Of a stretch of 46,599 nucleotides of DNA, positions 302 through 33,134 are shown piece by piece. A model generated the notes under the pieces. That model saw only the letters and a program-made list of their open reading frames with translations, was not told where the DNA came from and did not search any database. The translations under genes and the position numbers were made by a program. The number at the start of each line of letters is the position of its first letter. Position 1 is the first letter of the stretch. This DNA comes from Candidatus Allofournierella pullistercoris (GTDB taxonomy: Bacteria > Bacillota > Clostridia > Oscillospirales > Ruminococcaceae). The stretch is from contig JAHLFP010000008.1 in assembly GCA_018883715.1 (NCBI GenBank), forward strand, positions 1 through 46,599. Reading direction: 5' to 3'.

Positions 302-451
302 CACCTTTTTTAAAAAAATTCTCACTTTTTTTCAAAAAACAATTTCAAAAGCAAAGGCTCGATCCCTTCCTTCTTATTTATATATAGGCTACTACCGTCT
401 AACTTTCAACCTACTACCATGCACAACATTCCACACCCTGACCCGCCAAAC

Positions 452-485
452 ACAAAAAAGGGAAGGCTCTCGCCTTCCCTTTTTC
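452..485 (-). terminator. Rho-independent terminator after the M3 peptidase gene
   Basis: Hairpin AAGGGAAGGC-gaga-GCCTTCCCTT followed by T-run on the minus strand. Confidence 0.85.
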
Positions 486-486
486 C

Positions 487-2190
487 TTAAAGTTTCTTGC
501 ACTGCTCCATGGTCCAGTCGTACACCTGCTGTGCAACCGGTTCAATGCTTCCCTCTTCAAAGGGGACTGCAAAACCGGCGGCCTGCACCAGTCCGGCGTA
601 GGTATCACTTCCGCCCTTTTCCACCAAAGCAACATACCGCTTCCATGCATCCTCTGCATCGTTCAGATGGGCGGCAAAGAACTGCAATGCCACCATCTGC
701 GCCAGGCAGTAATCAATATAGTAGAACGGATACTGATAGATATGCAGCTGCCGCTGCCAGCCTGCGCCCCGGCTGTAACAGGGGATACTGTCAAACTCAT
801 TCCAGGGACGGTATTTTTTCTCCAGTTCCAGCCACACCTGGTTGCGCTCCTGGGCCGTCAGTTCCGGTTTGCTGTACACAATATGCTGGAACTCATCCAC
901 CATACAGCCATAGGGCAGGAAGGTGAGTGCCTCCTGTGCATGGGAAACCGAATACTTCGCCGTATCCTCCCCAAAGAACAGGTGGTGCCAGGGGCTTGTC
1001 AAAAACTCCATGGACATACTGTGGATTTCACAGCTTTCTAGTCCCGGGCTTGCCAGCTCCTGGCACATTCCTTTTTGTGCCGCCACATAAGCCTGGAAGG
1101 CATGGCCCGCTTCATGGGTCAATACATCCACGTCCCCTGCTGTTCCGTTAAAGTTGGAGAAAACAAAGGGTGCACCATATCCCACAATGGTTTCACAGTA
1201 GCCGCCGGGAGCCTTACCGGGACGGCTTTCCAAATCAAACAGCTCACTTTCCGTCATGAACTGGATAAATTCACTGGTTTCCGGGCTCAGTTCCTTGTAC
1301 ATCTGAACCGCCTTATCCAGCAACTCCTGGGCCGTACCCTTGGGCAGGGGGTTGCCGTCCGCAAAGCTGATAGTGGTATCGCTGAACTTTGCCTCTGGGA
1401 TGCCGATGCGCTCAAACTGGGCTTTCATCGCCTTGTGAGCCAAAGGTGTTACATACCGTGCCACCTGTTCCCGGAAACGCTTCACGTCCTCCTCGTTGTA
1501 CCCCAGTCGTCCCATCCGCAGGTAGGACAGGGGGATATAGTTTTCAAATCCAAGTTTCTGTGCCTGAGCATTCCGGTTTGCAATCATCCGGGTGTAAATG
1601 TCGTCCAGTTCCTGCTGATGTTCATCAAAAAAGCGACCGTCTGCCTCAAACGCCGCACGGCGCACCTTGGCATCCATGCTCTGCTTATAGCGTGCCAGCT
1701 GGGGCAGGGTGCAAAGCTTGCCATCAAATTCCACCTGAGCGGTTGCATACAGCTTTTGGTACTGGCTTGCAAGGGCGTTTTCCTCCTGCATCAGTTCCAG
1801 CAGTTCATCGCTGGCACTTGCGGCGGCCACCTCCATCTTTTGAAGCAGGATTTCCCCGTACACTTCAGCCAATGCCCCTTTGTGCTCACTGGCTAAAAAG
1901 GCTCGGTACAATTCCAGCTGGGCATTTTCCACGCTGGGGGAATTGGCATCGAAAAAGTCATTTTCGGTATCATAGAAAGCATCGTTTGTGTCCAGTGTGT
2001 GGCGAATCTGCGCCAGACAAGCGGCGGTGGAAAACACATTGCTCAGCTTGGAATGCTGAACAAACACTTCCAGCAGTTCCTCACCACTGCCTGCGTTCTG
2101 TGCACGCTGGGTCAGCGTCTTATATTCGGCCAGCAATTGCTCCACGTCGGGACGCTGGTACTCCATCTTGTCAAATTTACAAATCTCCAT
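487..2190 (-). CDS. pepF: M3 family oligoendopeptidase
   Basis: 567 aa; zinc motif HEAGHAFQ and M3 family context (GTAGDVDVLTHEAGHAF). Confidence 0.9.
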   Translation of the reverse strand: MEICKFDKMEYQRPDVEQLLAEYKTLTQRAQNAGSGEELLEVFVQHSKLSNVFSTAACLAQIRHTLDTNDAFYDTENDFFDANSPSVENAQLELYRAFLASEHKGALAEVYGEILLQKMEVAAASASDELLELMQEENALASQYQKLYATAQVEFDGKLCTLPQLARYKQSMDAKVRRAAFEADGRFFDEHQQELDDIYTRMIANRNAQAQKLGFENYIPLSYLRMGRLGYNEEDVKRFREQVARYVTPLAHKAMKAQFERIGIPEAKFSDTTISFADGNPLPKGTAQELLDKAVQMYKELSPETSEFIQFMTESELFDLESRPGKAPGGYCETIVGYGAPFVFSNFNGTAGDVDVLTHEAGHAFQAYVAAQKGMCQELASPGLESCEIHSMSMEFLTSPWHHLFFGEDTAKYSVSHAQEALTFLPYGCMVDEFQHIVYSKPELTAQERNQVWLELEKKYRPWNEFDSIPCYSRGAGWQRQLHIYQYPFYYIDYCLAQMVALQFFAAHLNDAEDAWKRYVALVEKGGSDTYAGLVQAAGFAVPFEEGSIEPVAQQVYDWTMEQCKKL

Positions 2191-23447: not shown

Positions 23448-23763
23448 TCATTTATACAATATCAAAGGCTTGCTGGCAGTGCCCAGCGGCATAGGCAAGG
23501 CCACACGCAACAGCAGATACCCCCACAGGCATACGCAAGCAAACCCACACAGCCAAGACCGCCTATAATCATCGTTCCCCATTACCCCGTGGCTGGGTCA
23601 CACGCATGCCCGTGCTGTTCCATTTTTCCATGGATTCTGCTTTTACACTTGCAGGAAAAGCCAAAATATGATAAATTTAAAACAATAGTAAGGTAAAGCA
23701 TCTGCCCCTTTGGAACACCGTTATGCCCCTGCGCAAACTTTTGTTATCTTGGGAGGAACCGCC

Positions 23764-24486
23764 ATGCTTCAGATTCTTCTGTACGATACCAACCCGGAAT
23801 TTGCAAAGGCTCTGGCTGATAGGATTTCTGGTCTTTCCTGCTTTTGCAAAAACACCATGGAGATTTCCTATCTCACCGATGCAAAAGCACTTCTCGCCAA
23901 GGCCAGCAGTCGATGCGACCTGTTGCTTTTAGAGATGCCGGAGGATGCCTTTGTTGGGCTGAATCTGGTACGGCAGATTCGTGTGAAGAACCCCAATCTG
24001 GTGGTTATTTTTATCTCGGATTATTTGGAACTGGCCCGTTTTGGATACGAGGTACAAGCCTTTCGCTATCTGGCAAAATCCGAACTTTGCCACCATCTGG
24101 AAGAATATATACGGGATGCCATCCAGCAGTGCCAACCCCAAGAGAACTTTATCACGGTTTTGTCCGGTGGAGAATGGCTACACCTTCCCATCCAAAACCT
24201 TATCTACATCCACTGCCAAGGGCCGGAGCAACACCTTCACCTGCACAACACACCCCGAACCCCATTGCCGGTGCGCAAAACCCTTCTGGCACTGGAACAG
24301 GAACTGCGTGGCCAAGGATTTTTGCGCATCCACAAAAGTTACCTTGTGAACATGGCCTATCTGGAATTCCTGCAAAGCACCTGTGCCATGTTGACCACCG
24401 GGCTAAAACTGCCCTCCGGGACACGGGATTACCGCAAGAAGCTGAAGCAATATCTGGCATGGAAGCAAGCACAGGGCAATCTGTGA
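23764..24486 (+). CDS. Orphan LytTR-family response regulator with atypical receiver
   Basis: Receiver-like N-terminus and LytTR domain (LIYIHCQGPEQHLHLHN...FLRIHKSYLVNMAYLEFL). Confidence 0.85.
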   Translation: MLQILLYDTNPEFAKALADRISGLSCFCKNTMEISYLTDAKALLAKASSRCDLLLLEMPEDAFVGLNLVRQIRVKNPNLVVIFISDYLELARFGYEVQAFRYLAKSELCHHLEEYIRDAIQQCQPQENFITVLSGGEWLHLPIQNLIYIHCQGPEQHLHLHNTPRTPLPVRKTLLALEQELRGQGFLRIHKSYLVNMAYLEFLQSTCAMLTTGLKLPSGTRDYRKKLKQYLAWKQAQGNL

Positions 24487-24574
24487 ACATGGCCTATCTG
24501 GAATTCCTACAAAGCACCCTGCGCCATGTTGACCACCGGGCTAAAACTGCCCTCCGGGACACGAGATTGCCGCA
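24345..24574. repeat. Direct duplication of the 3' end of the LytTR gene (24345-24436 and 24482-24574)
   Basis: tgtgaacatggcctatctggaattcct.caaagcacc..gccatgttgaccaccgggctaaaactgccctccgggacacg.gatt.ccgca in both, with a few mismatches and one indel. Confidence 0.93.
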
Positions 24575-27104: not shown

Positions 27105-27893
27105 TCATGCAGGGATAATTACCTTTTTGGGGCAAACACCCACACAAGCGTTGCATCCGGTGCAACGTTCGTAATCAATTCGAGCCAGGCTGTCCTTCAC
27201 ATGGATGGCATCACTGGGGCAGGTTTTTTCGCACTTCATGCAACCAATGCAACCAGTATCGCACTCCTTCATGACCTGAGGGCCCTTCTCGTTGCTGTTG
27301 CAACGCACCTGAGGTTTGCCCTCGGTGTGGCCGCAGATGTCAATGACAAAGTGGGGGCAGACCTTGGCACAAGCACCACAGCCGGTGCAACGGTCATAGT
27401 CCACCTTGGCAATGCCGTCCACAATGTGGATGGCATCAAAGGGACAAGCCCGCTCGCAGTCGCCCAGACCCAGACAGCTCTGGGAGCAAGCCTTGGGGCC
27501 GCCCTGCAACATAGCAGCCGCCGCACAGGTGCCAATGCCCTTGTACTCAAAACGCTGTTTGCAGACACCGGGCTTGCCCTGGCATCCCACTACAGCTTTC
27601 AGCTGAACGGCCTCTTCTGCGGTGGTGCCCATAACCTGAGCCACCTGAGCAGAACAGCTCTGACCGCCGGGAACACACTTGTTCACCGGAGCGCCGCTTT
27701 CCACAATGGCTTTTGCATAGTCTGCACAGCCAGCATAGCCACAGGCGCCACAGTTTGCGCCGGGCAGGCACTGCTGTACCTCCTCGATGCGGGGGTCTTC
27801 CTCCACCGCCATAAACTTAGCGGCCAGAACCAGAATCACCGCACCCAGAAAGCCAATGACTGTTACAACAGCAATCGCAATTCCAATCGTCAT
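27105..27893 (-). CDS. rnfB: Rnf electron transport complex subunit B
   Basis: N-terminal TM, CLPGANCGACGYAGCADYA, multiple CxxCxxCxxxCP ferredoxin motifs. Confidence 0.95.
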   Translation of the reverse strand: MTIGIAIAVVTVIGFLGAVILVLAAKFMAVEEDPRIEEVQQCLPGANCGACGYAGCADYAKAIVESGAPVNKCVPGGQSCSAQVAQVMGTTAEEAVQLKAVVGCQGKPGVCKQRFEYKGIGTCAAAAMLQGGPKACSQSCLGLGDCERACPFDAIHIVDGIAKVDYDRCTGCGACAKVCPHFVIDICGHTEGKPQVRCNSNEKGPQVMKECDTGCIGCMKCEKTCPSDAIHVKDSLARIDYERCTGCNACVGVCPKKVIIPA

Positions 27894-27908: not shown

Positions 27909-28532
27909 TTACACAGTGCCAAAGATGTTTTCAATCATGCCCGCAAAACCGCCAAAGCTCAAGGCAGTGGCAGAAGCGGCCACCAAAGTGATGGGCAGTC
28001 CCTCAAAACACTTGGGGGGCTGGGCATCCTCCAGACGTTTGCGAACGCCGGAGAAGATAACCATAGCCAGCAGGAAGCCTACACCTGCACCCACGGCGCA
28101 AACGATGGACTCCACAAAGTTGTAACCGCTGTCAATGTTCAGCACGGTTACACCCAGCACAGCACAGTTGGTGGTAATCAAGGGCAGGTAAACACCCAGC
28201 GCCTTGTGCAAAGGGGGCATGTATTTTTTCATTGCCACCTCCACCAGCTGTACCAGCACGGCGATGATTAAGATAAATACAATGGTTTGCAGATAGCCCA
28301 AATCCCACTTCAGATTACCCTCAGCGTCCACCGGGGTAAGCAGGAAGTTCTGGATGGGCCAAGTCACAGCGGTGGCCAGGGTCATAACAAAGATAACCGC
28401 CGCACTCATACCCACTGCGGAGTTCAATTTTTTGGACACGCCCAAAAAGGGACAGATGCCCAAAAACTTTACCAGCACATAGTTATCCACCAAAATCATG
28501 GTGAAAAAGATTGCCGCCAGTTTTGCAGCCAT
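27909..28532 (-). CDS. rnfA: Rnf electron transport complex subunit A
   Basis: Multi-TM; NYVLVKFLGICPFLGVSKKL, VLLITTNCAVLGV-like ITTNCAVLG motif. Confidence 0.95.
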   Translation of the reverse strand: MAAKLAAIFFTMILVDNYVLVKFLGICPFLGVSKKLNSAVGMSAAVIFVMTLATAVTWPIQNFLLTPVDAEGNLKWDLGYLQTIVFILIIAVLVQLVEVAMKKYMPPLHKALGVYLPLITTNCAVLGVTVLNIDSGYNFVESIVCAVGAGVGFLLAMVIFSGVRKRLEDAQPPKCFEGLPITLVAASATALSFGGFAGMIENIFGTV

Positions 28533-29203
28533 TATTCGTCCCCTCCTTTCATGCCACAGCTACCCTTGGAAGGACAGCCTTCACAGCCGATGCTCCGGTC
28601 TACTTTCTTGCCAGTCTTTTCTTCCAGCCAGATGACCAGCGCCATCAGCACGCCAAAGGTGAAGAAGCCGCCAGCAGGGCTGGTCATAAAGGTAAAGCGG
28701 TCGATGCTTTCGGGGATAATGGTGATACCAAACCAGCTTCCCGCACCCAGAATCTCTCGGATGGAAGCCATGCAGACCAGCGCAAGGGTAAAGCCCAGTC
28801 CCATGCCAAGACCGTCCAGAGCGGAATCCAAGGGTTTGTTCTTGGAAGCAAACATCTCGGCACGGCCCAGAATGATGCAGTTTACCACTATCAGGGGCAG
28901 GAACACGCCCAGCGCCTTATCCAGCTGGGGCACAAATGCCTTAACCAGCATCTGAACCACCGAAACAAAGGTGGCAATAACAGTGATGTAAGCCGGCAGG
29001 CGAACCTTGCCGGGAATCACGTTGCGCAGCATGGAGATTACCAGGTTGGAGCAGATTAGCACAAAGGTGGCGGCAATGCCCATGCCAAGGCCGTTGAAAG
29101 CCACGGTGGTAACCGCCAGTGTGGGACAGGTTCCCAGCACCAGACGGAGCACCGGATTTTCTTTCACGAGGCCGTTGGTTACAATATTTAATTTGTTCAT
29201 CAA
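28532..29203 (-). CDS. rnfE: Rnf electron transport complex subunit E
   Basis: NGLVKENPVLRLVLGTCPTLAVTT; LPLIVVNCIILGRAEMFAS. Confidence 0.95.
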   Translation of the reverse strand: MMNKLNIVTNGLVKENPVLRLVLGTCPTLAVTTVAFNGLGMGIAATFVLICSNLVISMLRNVIPGKVRLPAYITVIATFVSVVQMLVKAFVPQLDKALGVFLPLIVVNCIILGRAEMFASKNKPLDSALDGLGMGLGFTLALVCMASIREILGAGSWFGITIIPESIDRFTFMTSPAGGFFTFGVLMALVIWLEEKTGKKVDRSIGCEGCPSKGSCGMKGGDE

Positions 29204-29215
29204 GACCAGCCTCCT

Positions 29216-30712
29216 TTAATTTGCAAGTCCTGCTGCGTAGGCTTGCAAGCACTTACGCACCAATTTTTTCACGCCACGGCTGGACTCGGTGGCCCCTGCG
29301 ATGGTGTCCACGCCGTCCAAATCCGCTTCCTGGGCAAGGCCCACATACTGGCTCAGATAGTCACTGCCAGCCGCCTTGTCGCCAATGCCAGCAGTCTGGC
29401 CGGAAGCGTCCACCCACACGCCGGTGGTCTTGCCGCTGGCATCAAAACCAACCGCCACCACCAGAGGGGATTTTTCGTATTCATAGCCCTTGCCCTCTGC
29501 AAACAGCACGGCAGTTCCGTCCTCTGCCTTCCATGCCTGCTGTAAGCCTTCCGGAGCGTCAATCTGGCTCAGGGTTACACCAGGAGCCAGCAGTTCCAGC
29601 ACCTCTTCCTGGCTCAAAGCCTGGGTCTGGGTGGTGGGTGCGCTGGTTGCCTCGCTGGAGGAACTGCTTTCCTCGCTGGTGGTACTGGTGGATTCAGCAG
29701 ACTCCTCTTCCTGTGCCAAAGCGGCCTCGCTGTCCGGCACCAAAGCCACAAATGCCCTGATTGCCTTACGCACCGCTTTCTTCACGCCACGGGTGGACTG
29801 GGTTGCACCTGCGATGGTGTCCACACCATCCAGACCCGGTTCACCCACAATGCCCGTGTACTGGTCCAGATATTCCTGGCCAGCGGCCTGGTCGCCAATG
29901 CCCGGAGTCTGACCGGAAGCATCCACCCACACACCGGTGATGCCGCCGTTGGCATCAAAGCCAACTGCCACCACCATGGGGGACTTGGCATACTCATAGC
30001 CCTTGTCCTCGGTGTAAATCACATAGCCGCCGTTGTCAGCCTGCCAAACCTGCGTTGCAGATTCCACAGGGTCAATCTGGGTCAGGGTTGCGCCGGGAGC
30101 CAGCATTGCACGGACTTCCTCTTCGGTCATGGAACTGGTGTCCACTTCCACAGTGGCCTGCTGACCCAGTGCTACCTCATTGAAGGCATTGATGGCACTG
30201 TTCACAGCGGACAGGGCAGCCTTGGAGCTGACGGTTACACCGCTGATCATGTCCACATCCCCTGCGGCAATGCTGCCACTCTTGCCCACAAAGCTCTCTG
30301 CCAGAGCCTGTGCATCCGGGTCGGTGGCATCTTCCAGCTTTTTGCCGTAACCAGCAGTCTCGCTGTTTTCCATAAACTTCACTTTCAGGACAGCGCCCTC
30401 TTCATCCAGAGCAACTACCACCGGAACATCGCCGCCAAAGCCTTTTCCAAAGCTCTGTACCACCCAGCCTGCGCCGTTGGTTGCCTTCAAAACCTTGGTT
30501 ACATTGCTTGTCTCAAACTCGGTAATTTCCTCAAAGCCGTCTGCCTCGGGCAGAACTTCCAAAAAGGCGGCATTGGCCGCATTGGCTTCCTGCTGGGCAA
30601 TGATGGGAGCGGTCAGCTCGTTGGTGAAGGCCAGTGCGCCACTTGCCACGATGCAGATAACCACCAGAACCACCACTGGTTTAATCATATCTTCCCAGGT
30701 GTTATGTTTCAT
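29216..30712 (-). CDS. rnfG: Rnf electron transport complex subunit G with three FMN-binding domains
   Basis: N-terminal TM; FMN-attachment-like motifs DMISGVT, DTIAGAT and DTIAGAT; position between rnfD and rnfE. Confidence 0.92.
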   Translation of the reverse strand: MKHNTWEDMIKPVVVLVVICIVASGALAFTNELTAPIIAQQEANAANAAFLEVLPEADGFEEITEFETSNVTKVLKATNGAGWVVQSFGKGFGGDVPVVVALDEEGAVLKVKFMENSETAGYGKKLEDATDPDAQALAESFVGKSGSIAAGDVDMISGVTVSSKAALSAVNSAINAFNEVALGQQATVEVDTSSMTEEEVRAMLAPGATLTQIDPVESATQVWQADNGGYVIYTEDKGYEYAKSPMVVAVGFDANGGITGVWVDASGQTPGIGDQAAGQEYLDQYTGIVGEPGLDGVDTIAGATQSTRGVKKAVRKAIRAFVALVPDSEAALAQEEESAESTSTTSEESSSSSEATSAPTTQTQALSQEEVLELLAPGVTLSQIDAPEGLQQAWKAEDGTAVLFAEGKGYEYEKSPLVVAVGFDASGKTTGVWVDASGQTAGIGDKAAGSDYLSQYVGLAQEADLDGVDTIAGATESSRGVKKLVRKCLQAYAAGLAN

Positions 30713-30714
30713 GG

Positions 30715-31746
30715 TTAAGCCGCTCCTTTCTTGTATTTTTTCGCACCCAGAGGCACCTGACGGGTCAGGTCGTTGATGTAGGGCACCAGCAGATTCATAA
30801 ACAGAATTGCATAGGATACACCCTCTGCCATGTTGGCAAAGTCACGGATGGCAAAGGTCAACAGACCCAGGCCGAAGCCAAAGACCATCTTGCCCTTCAT
30901 GGTAAAGGGGCTGGTCACATAATCGGTTGCCATAAACACAGCACCGAACAGCAGACCGCCAGCCAGAAGCTGACGCACCAGCAGTGCACCACCGGCAGTG
31001 AGAGCCGCGGCAAAATCCATCTGCTGGGCATTCATGCCGTCCACCACGCTATGCACCAGGCTGAACACTGCATAGCTGCCCAGGTAGCACACAGGAATGG
31101 TCACCTGGATGGTGCCGGTTGCCACCAGCCATACAAAGCCCAGCAGGATGGCGATGGCGCAGGTTTCACCCATCACACCACCATGCACACCCAGCAACAA
31201 ATCCATCACAGGATACTGGCTCAGCAGGGAGTTACCTTGAGCATCTGCCAGCTGCAAGGGGGTTGCGCTGGCTACCGCATCCAGGTTCTCAAATACAGAC
31301 TGAGCCGCCGCAGGGTAAACCCAGGTGGTCATCCGAGCACCAAAGCCGGTGAACAGCACCATACGGCCCACCAAAGCGGGGTTTACAAAGTTATACCCGA
31401 TGCCGCCAAACAGCTGTTTTACCACCACAATGGAGATAAAAGCACCCACAATGGCAATCCACAAAGGCAGACCCACCGGGAAATTCAGTGCCAGAATCAA
31501 ACCAGTGACCACGGCGGACAAATCTCCCACCGGGTTCACCTTTTTCATCAGGCGGGTATACAGGTATTCAAACCCTACGCAGGCCGCCACGGTCACACCA
31601 ATCAACAGCAGGGCACGCAGGCCAAAAATCCAGGCACTTGCCACCACGCTGGGCAGCAATGCCACCACCACATTGCCCATCAACTTACGGGTGGAGGAAT
31701 GATCCACCATATGGGGCGAGGCGGTTACAATCAAACGGTTTTCCAT
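30715..31746 (-). CDS. rnfD: Rnf electron transport complex subunit D
   Basis: SPHMVDHSSTRKLMGNVVVALLP; multi-TM; DYVTSPFTMKGKMVFG. Confidence 0.95.
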   Translation of the reverse strand: MENRLIVTASPHMVDHSSTRKLMGNVVVALLPSVVASAWIFGLRALLLIGVTVAACVGFEYLYTRLMKKVNPVGDLSAVVTGLILALNFPVGLPLWIAIVGAFISIVVVKQLFGGIGYNFVNPALVGRMVLFTGFGARMTTWVYPAAAQSVFENLDAVASATPLQLADAQGNSLLSQYPVMDLLLGVHGGVMGETCAIAILLGFVWLVATGTIQVTIPVCYLGSYAVFSLVHSVVDGMNAQQMDFAAALTAGGALLVRQLLAGGLLFGAVFMATDYVTSPFTMKGKMVFGFGLGLLTFAIRDFANMAEGVSYAILFMNLLVPYINDLTRQVPLGAKKYKKGAA

Positions 31747-33054
31747 TTAATGTTGTCCCTCCTTCTGGGCAAATTGCTTTGCCAGACTCATCACCTGGGT
31801 CACAGGACGCTTTGCGGGGCAGACATAGCTGCAACTGCCACACACCATGCACAAATCCACCCGAAGCTCTTTCAGCAGCTGGGTGTTTTTGCTGTTAAAT
31901 GCACCTGCAATGGATACAGGGGTCAGACCCATGGGGCAAGCCTCGATGCACCGTCCGCAACGGATGCAGGGGCCCATATCCGGCTTGTTGGCCGCTTTTT
32001 CGCTCAAAGCCAGCAGGCCGTTGGTCTGCTTAATCACCGGGGCTTCCAAGCTGGCCATGGCAACGCCCATCATGGGGCCACCGCTCAGCAGTTTTGCCAC
32101 CGGCTGCTGAGTATCCAGACCGCAGAACTGCAAAACCTCAATGGCGGGAGTACCCACAATCACTTCCACGTTCTGGGGCTTTTGCACCAGGTCGCCAGCC
32201 ACGGTTACACGCTTAGTCATCAGGGGCTTGCCGGTTTGCAGATAGCCACCCAGAACCGAAATAGTGGTCACGTTCATCACCACCACACCCACATCGGCAG
32301 GCAGGCCGCCCTGGGGTACTTCCAGTCCGGTGAGGGACTCCACCAGAATCTTCTCCGCACCCTGGGGGTAACGGCTGGGCAGAACCTTCACGCTGGTATT
32401 GCTGCAACGGGTGGCAAGCTGTTTCAGCACCTGAATGCAGGCGGGCTTGTTGTCCTCCACGCCAATGATGCAACGGGAGATACCCATATGCTTCATAACA
32501 GCCTGAATACCGGCGCAGATGGTGTCACCATGCTCCAGAATTTCACGGGTATCCGAAGTGAGATAAGGCTCACACTCTGCCGCATTCACCAGCAGGGTGT
32601 TTACGTTCTTTGCGCTCTCCAGCTTTGCGGCAGTGGGGAAGCCTGCTCCGCCCAGACCCACAAGGCCGGAATTGCGCACTGCCTGGATGAAATCCTCCCG
32701 GCTTTGCACCACAGGGGCGGTAAACTCCACCTGAGTTTGCTGTCCATCGGGAATAATCACCACCGCAGGCACACGGGTTCCGTTCATCAATGTATAGCGT
32801 TCCACACCGCTTACAGTGCCAGATACACCAGAGTAAATGGGTGCGCTTACCGCACCTTCTGCCTGACCTACCAGGCTACCCACCTGTACTGTGTCACCTT
32901 TTTTTACCACAGGAGTGCAAGCCGCACCAATGTGCTGCTGCATGGGCAGTACAATTTTGCTGGGCAAGGGCATACGCACCGTTGCCTGGTCCGCTGTTGT
33001 TTTCTCGTGTGGGACCTTCGCGCCAAGGGCCGCACGCTTTAATTTCTTCAACAT
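31747..33054 (-). CDS. rnfC: Rnf electron transport complex subunit C
   Basis: GLVGLGGAGFPTAAKL (NAD/FMN-type), CIRCGRCIEACPMGL and CMVCGSCSYVCPAKRP clusters. Start MLKKLKRAALG (33054) after GGAGG. Confidence 0.95.
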   Translation of the reverse strand: MLKKLKRAALGAKVPHEKTTADQATVRMPLPSKIVLPMQQHIGAACTPVVKKGDTVQVGSLVGQAEGAVSAPIYSGVSGTVSGVERYTLMNGTRVPAVVIIPDGQQTQVEFTAPVVQSREDFIQAVRNSGLVGLGGAGFPTAAKLESAKNVNTLLVNAAECEPYLTSDTREILEHGDTICAGIQAVMKHMGISRCIIGVEDNKPACIQVLKQLATRCSNTSVKVLPSRYPQGAEKILVESLTGLEVPQGGLPADVGVVVMNVTTISVLGGYLQTGKPLMTKRVTVAGDLVQKPQNVEVIVGTPAIEVLQFCGLDTQQPVAKLLSGGPMMGVAMASLEAPVIKQTNGLLALSEKAANKPDMGPCIRCGRCIEACPMGLTPVSIAGAFNSKNTQLLKELRVDLCMVCGSCSYVCPAKRPVTQVMSLAKQFAQKEGQH

Positions 33055-33134
33055 GAGTCGAACCTTCCTCCATTCTTCACTATCAAACATTCTTTTTGTT
33101 GGCACAAGCCTTAAAAAAGGACAGTTATTATTCC

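Follow-up and report, generated by a model that had tools for sequence, protein, structure and literature searches.

An RnfG protein with three FMN-binding domains in the rnf operon of Candidatus Allofournierella pullistercoris

The rnf operon and the domain architecture of RnfG

The analysed window, i.e., the whole stretch of 46,599 nucleotides from Candidatus Allofournierella pullistercoris, carries a complete rnf operon in the gene order rnfC-D-G-E-A-B. The Rnf complex is a ferredoxin:NAD+ oxidoreductase and an ion pump, in which the canonical RnfG serves as an electron carrier connecting the membrane core with RnfD. The profile search placed all six products above the cut-offs of the curated families:

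31747..33105, minus strand: rnfC (TIGR01945, 434.7 bits)
30715..31746, minus strand: rnfD, with its own flavinylation-like site DAVASATPL (TIGR01946, 269.1 bits)
29216..30712, minus strand: rnfG, encoding RnfG with the domain order A-B-B (TIGR01947 rnfG, 117.5 bits, cut-off 102)
28532..29203, minus strand: rnfE (TIGR01948, 238.3 bits)
27909..28532, minus strand: rnfA (TIGR01943, 245.9 bits)
27105..27893, minus strand: rnfB (NF005503, 258.3 bits; TIGR01944, 114 bits)

Located between rnfD and rnfE, rnfG encodes a product of 498 aa, and the plus strand is not the coding strand there. The initial annotation had given the correct coordinates of the gene but left its strand unstated. The possibility that the flavin site of RnfD (DAVASAT) is unusual was also considered and rejected, as the variants SATPL and GATPL are common in the family and the site is ordinary.

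The Pfam scan detected three stretches of FMN_bind (PF04205) within RnfG with a total of 138.7 bits, and in the whole-genome scan each of the three domains singly exceeded the Pfam cut-off of 22 bits. The domains, about 130–155 aa long, are of two types, named A (the canonical RnfG domain) and B. The features of the protein are as follows:

30629..30700, minus strand: predicted N-terminal membrane anchor helix, approximately residues 5–28 (hydrophobic stretch MIKPVVVLVVICIVASGALAF; helix 5–53 in the AlphaFold model)
30188..30442, minus strand: FMN_bind domain 1, type A, the canonical RnfG domain (60.1 bits)
29759..29983, minus strand: FMN_bind domain 2, type B, second position (51.7 bits)
29615..29737, minus strand: S/E/A/T-rich linker between domains 2 and 3, residues 326–366 (composition; pLDDT below 50 at residues 336–363)
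29243..29470, minus strand: FMN_bind domain 3, type B, C-terminal position (49.1 bits)

The presence of three FMN_bind domains in one RnfG, the striking likeness of the second and third and the Ser/Thr/Glu-rich linker that joins them had all been pointed out in the initial annotation, and the present results bear them out. Domains 2 and 3 are 64% identical over 130 residues, while domain 1 shares 33% of its residues with domain 2 and 30% with domain 3. The alignment scores were 73 for domains 1 and 2, 50 for domains 1 and 3 and 415 for domains 2 and 3, compared with 13 to 26 for the best shuffled sequences. At the DNA level, the repeats of domains 2 and 3, which keep a constant spacing of 513 nt, show identities of about 80% over 246 nt and 70% over another 100 nt. 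The linker (11 S, 8 E, 7 A and 7 T among 41 residues) is predicted by the model to be disordered.

As the assembly is fragmented into 72 contigs, an assembly or gene-calling artefact, with falsely repeated or wrongly joined domains, was considered. However, 36% of the residues differ between domains 2 and 3, the reading frame is open throughout, and independent genomes, including that of Fournierella massiliensis DSM 100451, encode three or four domains. Based on the independent genomes and the divergence of domains 2 and 3, this explanation was rejected as extremely improbable. Taken together, the profile matches and the gene order support the assignment of the gene at 29216–30712 to subunit G of an Rnf complex that has the ordinary set of six genes, with two extra FMN_bind domains placed after the canonical one.

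Domain order and history in the genus and family

The scan of named genomes yielded six relatives from the genus (Fournierella/Gemmiger): Fournierella massiliensis DSM 100451, Gemmiger sp. An194, An87 and An50, and two uncultured bins. Two of the seven RnfG proteins of the genus, the window protein and L005, have three domains and the other five have four; the domain order is A-B-B in the window protein and A-B-A-B in five relatives. The sister genus g58 and the genus g21 have the order A-B followed by a long S/A-rich C-terminal tail (L064–L068). This tail resembles the linker behind the first B domain of the window protein, as if the second B domain, and in some species a second A domain, might have been added after it. 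In genus g9 the order is A-B or A-A-B, the RnfG of Subdoligranulum variabile (L086) has two domains, and single-domain RnfG occurs in many other genera of the family. At least two domains per rnfG frame were found in 13 genera (g1, g58, g21, g9, g48, g102, g98, g7, g87, g46, g29, g89 and g31), a count that covers the fetched loci, a non-random sample from which no frequency is derivable. Wherever the locus extended far enough, the multi-domain rnfG was flanked by rnfD and rnfE.

The phylogenetic analysis of 71 domains showed that domain 1 of the window protein groups with the first domains of the relatives (100/99), to which it is orthologous. Domain 2 joins the second-position domains from L005 and L006 (99/94), and domain 3 clusters with the C-terminal domains from each of the six relatives (96/91). 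In the tree based on B domains only, the C-terminal domains formed a clade (89/92), and the grouping of the second-position B domains into one clade was weakly supported (55/81). A B duplication private to the window species, which would pair its domains 2 and 3, was rejected in the B-domain tree (p-AU 0.014). Since domain 3 groups with the C-terminal domains of the relatives and the private pair is rejected, the duplication is most likely older than the window species and common to the genus, as far as the domain sequences indicate. The later duplication of domains 2 and 3 put forward in the initial annotation is therefore upheld in that B was duplicated after A and B had split, but the event was genus-wide and not private to this species.

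The second A domain, which is the third domain of the four-domain relatives, groups with the A domains of genera g9 and g47 and not with the first A domain of its own genus (95/92), with weak deeper support (89/75). On the tree of first A domains, in which supports are moderate (85/70 and 88/91), a gain of the second A domain in the five four-domain species requires fewer steps than two losses.

Two further observations were made among the loci of the family. In two species of one genus, rnfD and rnfG form one open frame of 497 aa (L031, G089:C10, frame 304–1794, minus strand; L088, G178:C23:21949-22707), in which the end of RnfD (...KPFGGKK) continues without a stop into RnfG (MRVARDIVQP...). 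Both flavinylation sites are carried by this fusion, and the two species are 74% identical over the compared region. Moreover, a genome assigned to g58 also contains a near-identical fragment of the four-domain RnfG of the window genus (G322:C15 and G322:C38, L060), which suggests contamination or a mixed bin.

Flavinylation sites, selection and structure

The motif search and the genus alignment located one flavinylation motif in each domain:

30233..30253, minus strand: motif of domain 1, DMISGVT, Thr160, with Val for the usual Ala
29801..29821, minus strand: motif of domain 2, DTIAGAT, Thr304
29288..29308, minus strand: motif of domain 3, DTIAGAT, Thr475

The motifs quoted earlier are all present (DMISGVT at residue 154, DTIAGATQSTRGVKK at 298 and DTIAGATESSRGVKK at 469); they had been listed correctly, but the atypical SGVT of domain 1 had been overlooked. 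Not one but three threonines modifiable by ApbE are retained, and Thr160, Thr304 and Thr475 are invariant in the alignment of the seven genus members. Compared with the strict pattern D-x-x-[S/T]-G-A-[S/T], domain 1 (DxxSGVT) and domains 2 and 3 (DxxAGAT) are each off at one position; the usage stated in the texts of PMC8238504 and PMC10339131 is '[S/T]GA[S/T]-like' or DxxxGAT. An ApbE match, a gene which the initial annotation had proposed looking for, was found at G000:C14:13923-14801 (204.7 bits), on a contig different from that of the rnf operon. Its frame encodes 391 aa with a lipoprotein-like N-terminus.

In domain 1, the Ala before the Thr is replaced by Val in all seven genus members, with L005 additionally showing GGVT, and the same position in the sister genera g58 and g21 reads SGAT, AGAT or TGAT. 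According to a review of motif mutagenesis (PMC12052999), the change of Ala to Val at the motif lowered flavinylation to about 50% in a Klebsiella fumarate reductase. Natural variation at this Ala also occurs elsewhere: TGST is aligned in RnfG of A. woodii (9eri_G), and AGVT is present in L084 (g31). The sequence suggests that domain 1 probably carries the flavin, though perhaps at incomplete occupancy. The Ala or Gly of the motif varies in the B domains of some relatives (AGST, ASAT and ASVT). Every B domain of the genus retains the QTxGIGD and GVKK positions unchanged.

Damaged distal motifs were observed in other multi-domain RnfG proteins, namely DTIANCT in the second domain of L029, and in the third domains of L069, L070 and L077, where the motif is DAIASVT or, as in L077, absent. 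Since distal motifs are damaged in some RnfG proteins, not all of the counted domains need carry FMN.

The dN/dS values calculated with the Nei–Gojobori method were between 0.05 and 0.26 for every domain in every computable pair; the pairs with the window protein had dS above 1 and were near saturation, and the close pairs among G001 to G004 (dS 0.19–0.53) agreed with them. Domain 1 and the second A domain were the most constrained (0.05–0.08) and the B domains less so (0.07–0.26). The extra domains are thus under purifying selection.

In the full-length AlphaFold model, a long helix at the N-terminus is followed by three alpha/beta domains. With a mean pLDDT of 72.7 and a pTM of 0.41, the model is too uncertain for inter-domain distances; its best fold matches are solved RnfG chains. 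Domain 1 with the N-terminal helix matches solved RnfG both by sequence (7zc6_G, E = 3.3e-12; 9eri_G, E = 3.7e-9) and by fold. The isolated B domain was modelled with a pLDDT of 89.1 and a pTM of 0.87, and its fold matches RnfG/NqrC (9eri_G, TM 0.78 on the query). The hydrophobic N-terminus, the modelled helix and the homology to membrane-bound RnfG chains agree with the predicted topology, in which RnfG is anchored by its N-terminus and the FMN domain lies outside.

Known multi-domain systems and the proposed function

Judged by its sequence, the window protein is a member of a kind known since 2021. Multi-flavinylated RnfG proteins came to light in a genome survey, and a second electron route through them to extracytosolic acceptors was proposed by Meheust et al. 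2021 in eLife (Fig. 6, PMC8238504). The proteins described there resemble the window RnfG in their RNF cluster, in having more than one FMN_bind domain and in the proposed role. The Christensenellales subset described in that paper carries a heme domain, whereas the Pfam scan found none in the window RnfG. The typing into A and B, the ABB/ABAB history across the genus and the SGVT shared by its members were not found in the consulted passages of PMC8238504, the supplement of which may list the family.

The canonical RnfG proteins of C. tetanomorphum (7zc6_G), A. woodii (9eri_G) and A. vinelandii (8ahx_G) share the N-terminal membrane helix and FMN_bind with residues 1–180 of the window protein. 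However, they have one domain with an SGAT-like motif (TGST in A. woodii), while the window RnfG has three domains, the first with SGVT. The three-domain FMN_bind protein SaFMN3 was fully flavinylated at all three domains according to mass spectrometry, with a single potential of -184 mV and oxygen as the acceptor for its reduced form (PMC10339131). Like the window RnfG, SaFMN3 and CbFMN4 have three or four FMN_bind domains on flexible linkers, but they are not reported as Rnf subunits, and their domains, prepared as constructs of 84–88 aa, are more than 80% mutually identical, as opposed to the longer A and B domains of the window protein with 30–33% identity (PMC10339131). The beads-on-a-string multi-FMN-bind1 proteins, as presented in PMC11334425, are likewise predicted to form independent domains on flexible linkers; no named membrane complex is tied to these models there, unlike the window protein, which is anchored in Rnf.

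In the mechanism that we propose, ApbE would attach one FMN to each domain. Domain 1 would keep the normal work of RnfG and pass electrons from the membrane core (RnfA/E) to RnfD, because it is fused to the anchor and orthologous to the canonical RnfG. Domains 2 and 3 would be flexibly tethered on the outer side of the membrane and receive electrons from domain 1, and their flavins would act as a short relay or, which is the weakest step, as a side outlet to acceptors in the cell wall or the medium. The service of extra covalent FMNs to external acceptors, which the initial annotation had also raised, is plausible and has already been published for multi-flavinylated RnfG proteins (PMC8238504). 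We lean towards this explanation as a whole, an ordinary Rnf G subunit with distal flavins as a relay or side outlet, based on the domains above the cut-off, the complete operon, the matches of domain 1 and the B domain to solved RnfG, the position of multi-domain rnfG between rnfD and rnfE, the invariant threonines, ApbE, purifying selection and the published precedent. Against this explanation count the SGVT of the gateway domain 1, which may be less fully flavinylated, and the varying B motifs of some relatives, as well as the scan of the window genome (88.6% complete), which found no FMN_bind protein other than RnfG. No electron acceptor or partner for the distal flavins was identified in the window genome.

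The main rival holds that the extra domains carry FMN but transfer no electrons outwards, serving locally to store flavin or to buffer redox changes, or being repeats whose copy number drifts with little effect. The copy number and order do vary freely among relatives (A, AB, AAB, ABB and ABAB), the distal motifs of L029 and of the third domain of L077 are degenerate or missing, no acceptor gene is nearby, and constraint is somewhat weaker on the B than on the A domains. On the other hand, the motif Thr, QTxGIGD and GVKK do not vary in the B domains of the genus, and dN/dS is well below 1. We give this rival a real but clearly smaller chance than the outlet, which is our preferred, though unproven, reading. 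It is also conceivable, but rather improbable, that a distal domain replaces domain 1, or competes with it, in the normal U-shaped path to RnfD, with domain 1 weakened by SGVT. The Val common to the seven first domains of the genus, set against the Ala of the sister genera, and the halved flavinylation of the fumarate reductase variant (PMC12052999) would fit such a replacement. Within the window protein, however, domain 1 shows the strongest constraint (dN/dS 0.07–0.08), it retains its Thr and the SETxG loop with the membrane anchor joined to it directly, and the motif position also varies in other natural RnfG proteins, such as that of A. woodii. A doubtful extension of the outlet reading is that RnfG of the whole genus has been rebuilt: the distal B flavins would carry a branch current out of the Rnf complex, the proximal domain would be slowed or partly flavinylated owing to SGVT, and Rnf would give gut fermenters an adjustable outlet for surplus electrons from ferredoxin.

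The lineage forms a natural series: one domain in other genera of the family, AB in the sister genera and ABB or ABAB in the genus studied here. This series, which includes a deposited strain (Fournierella massiliensis DSM 100451), could allow direct measurement of how additional flavin domains influence Rnf activity and electron export. If the outlet idea is true, these gut fermenters would possess a heme-free route for dumping electrons that is linked to energy conservation.

A reductase partner bearing FMN_bind was found neither in the window genome nor in G005 or G006; since no FMN_bind protein besides RnfG was found in these three, a link to a reductase could not be drawn. Flavoproteins combining FAD_binding_2 with FMN_bind, similar to fumarate reductase, are present in several relatives, and in two four-domain relatives such a gene shares a contig with the rnf operon, at a distance of about 12 kb (L018, G002:C12:16854; L019, G004:C14:56354).

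Elsewhere in the window, at 24345–24574 on the plus strand, the last approximately 90 bp of an open reading frame for a LytTR-like response regulator (23710–24486) recur 137–138 bp downstream, with 95% identity over 57 nt and 97% over 37 nt, which looks like a partial duplication of its 3' end.
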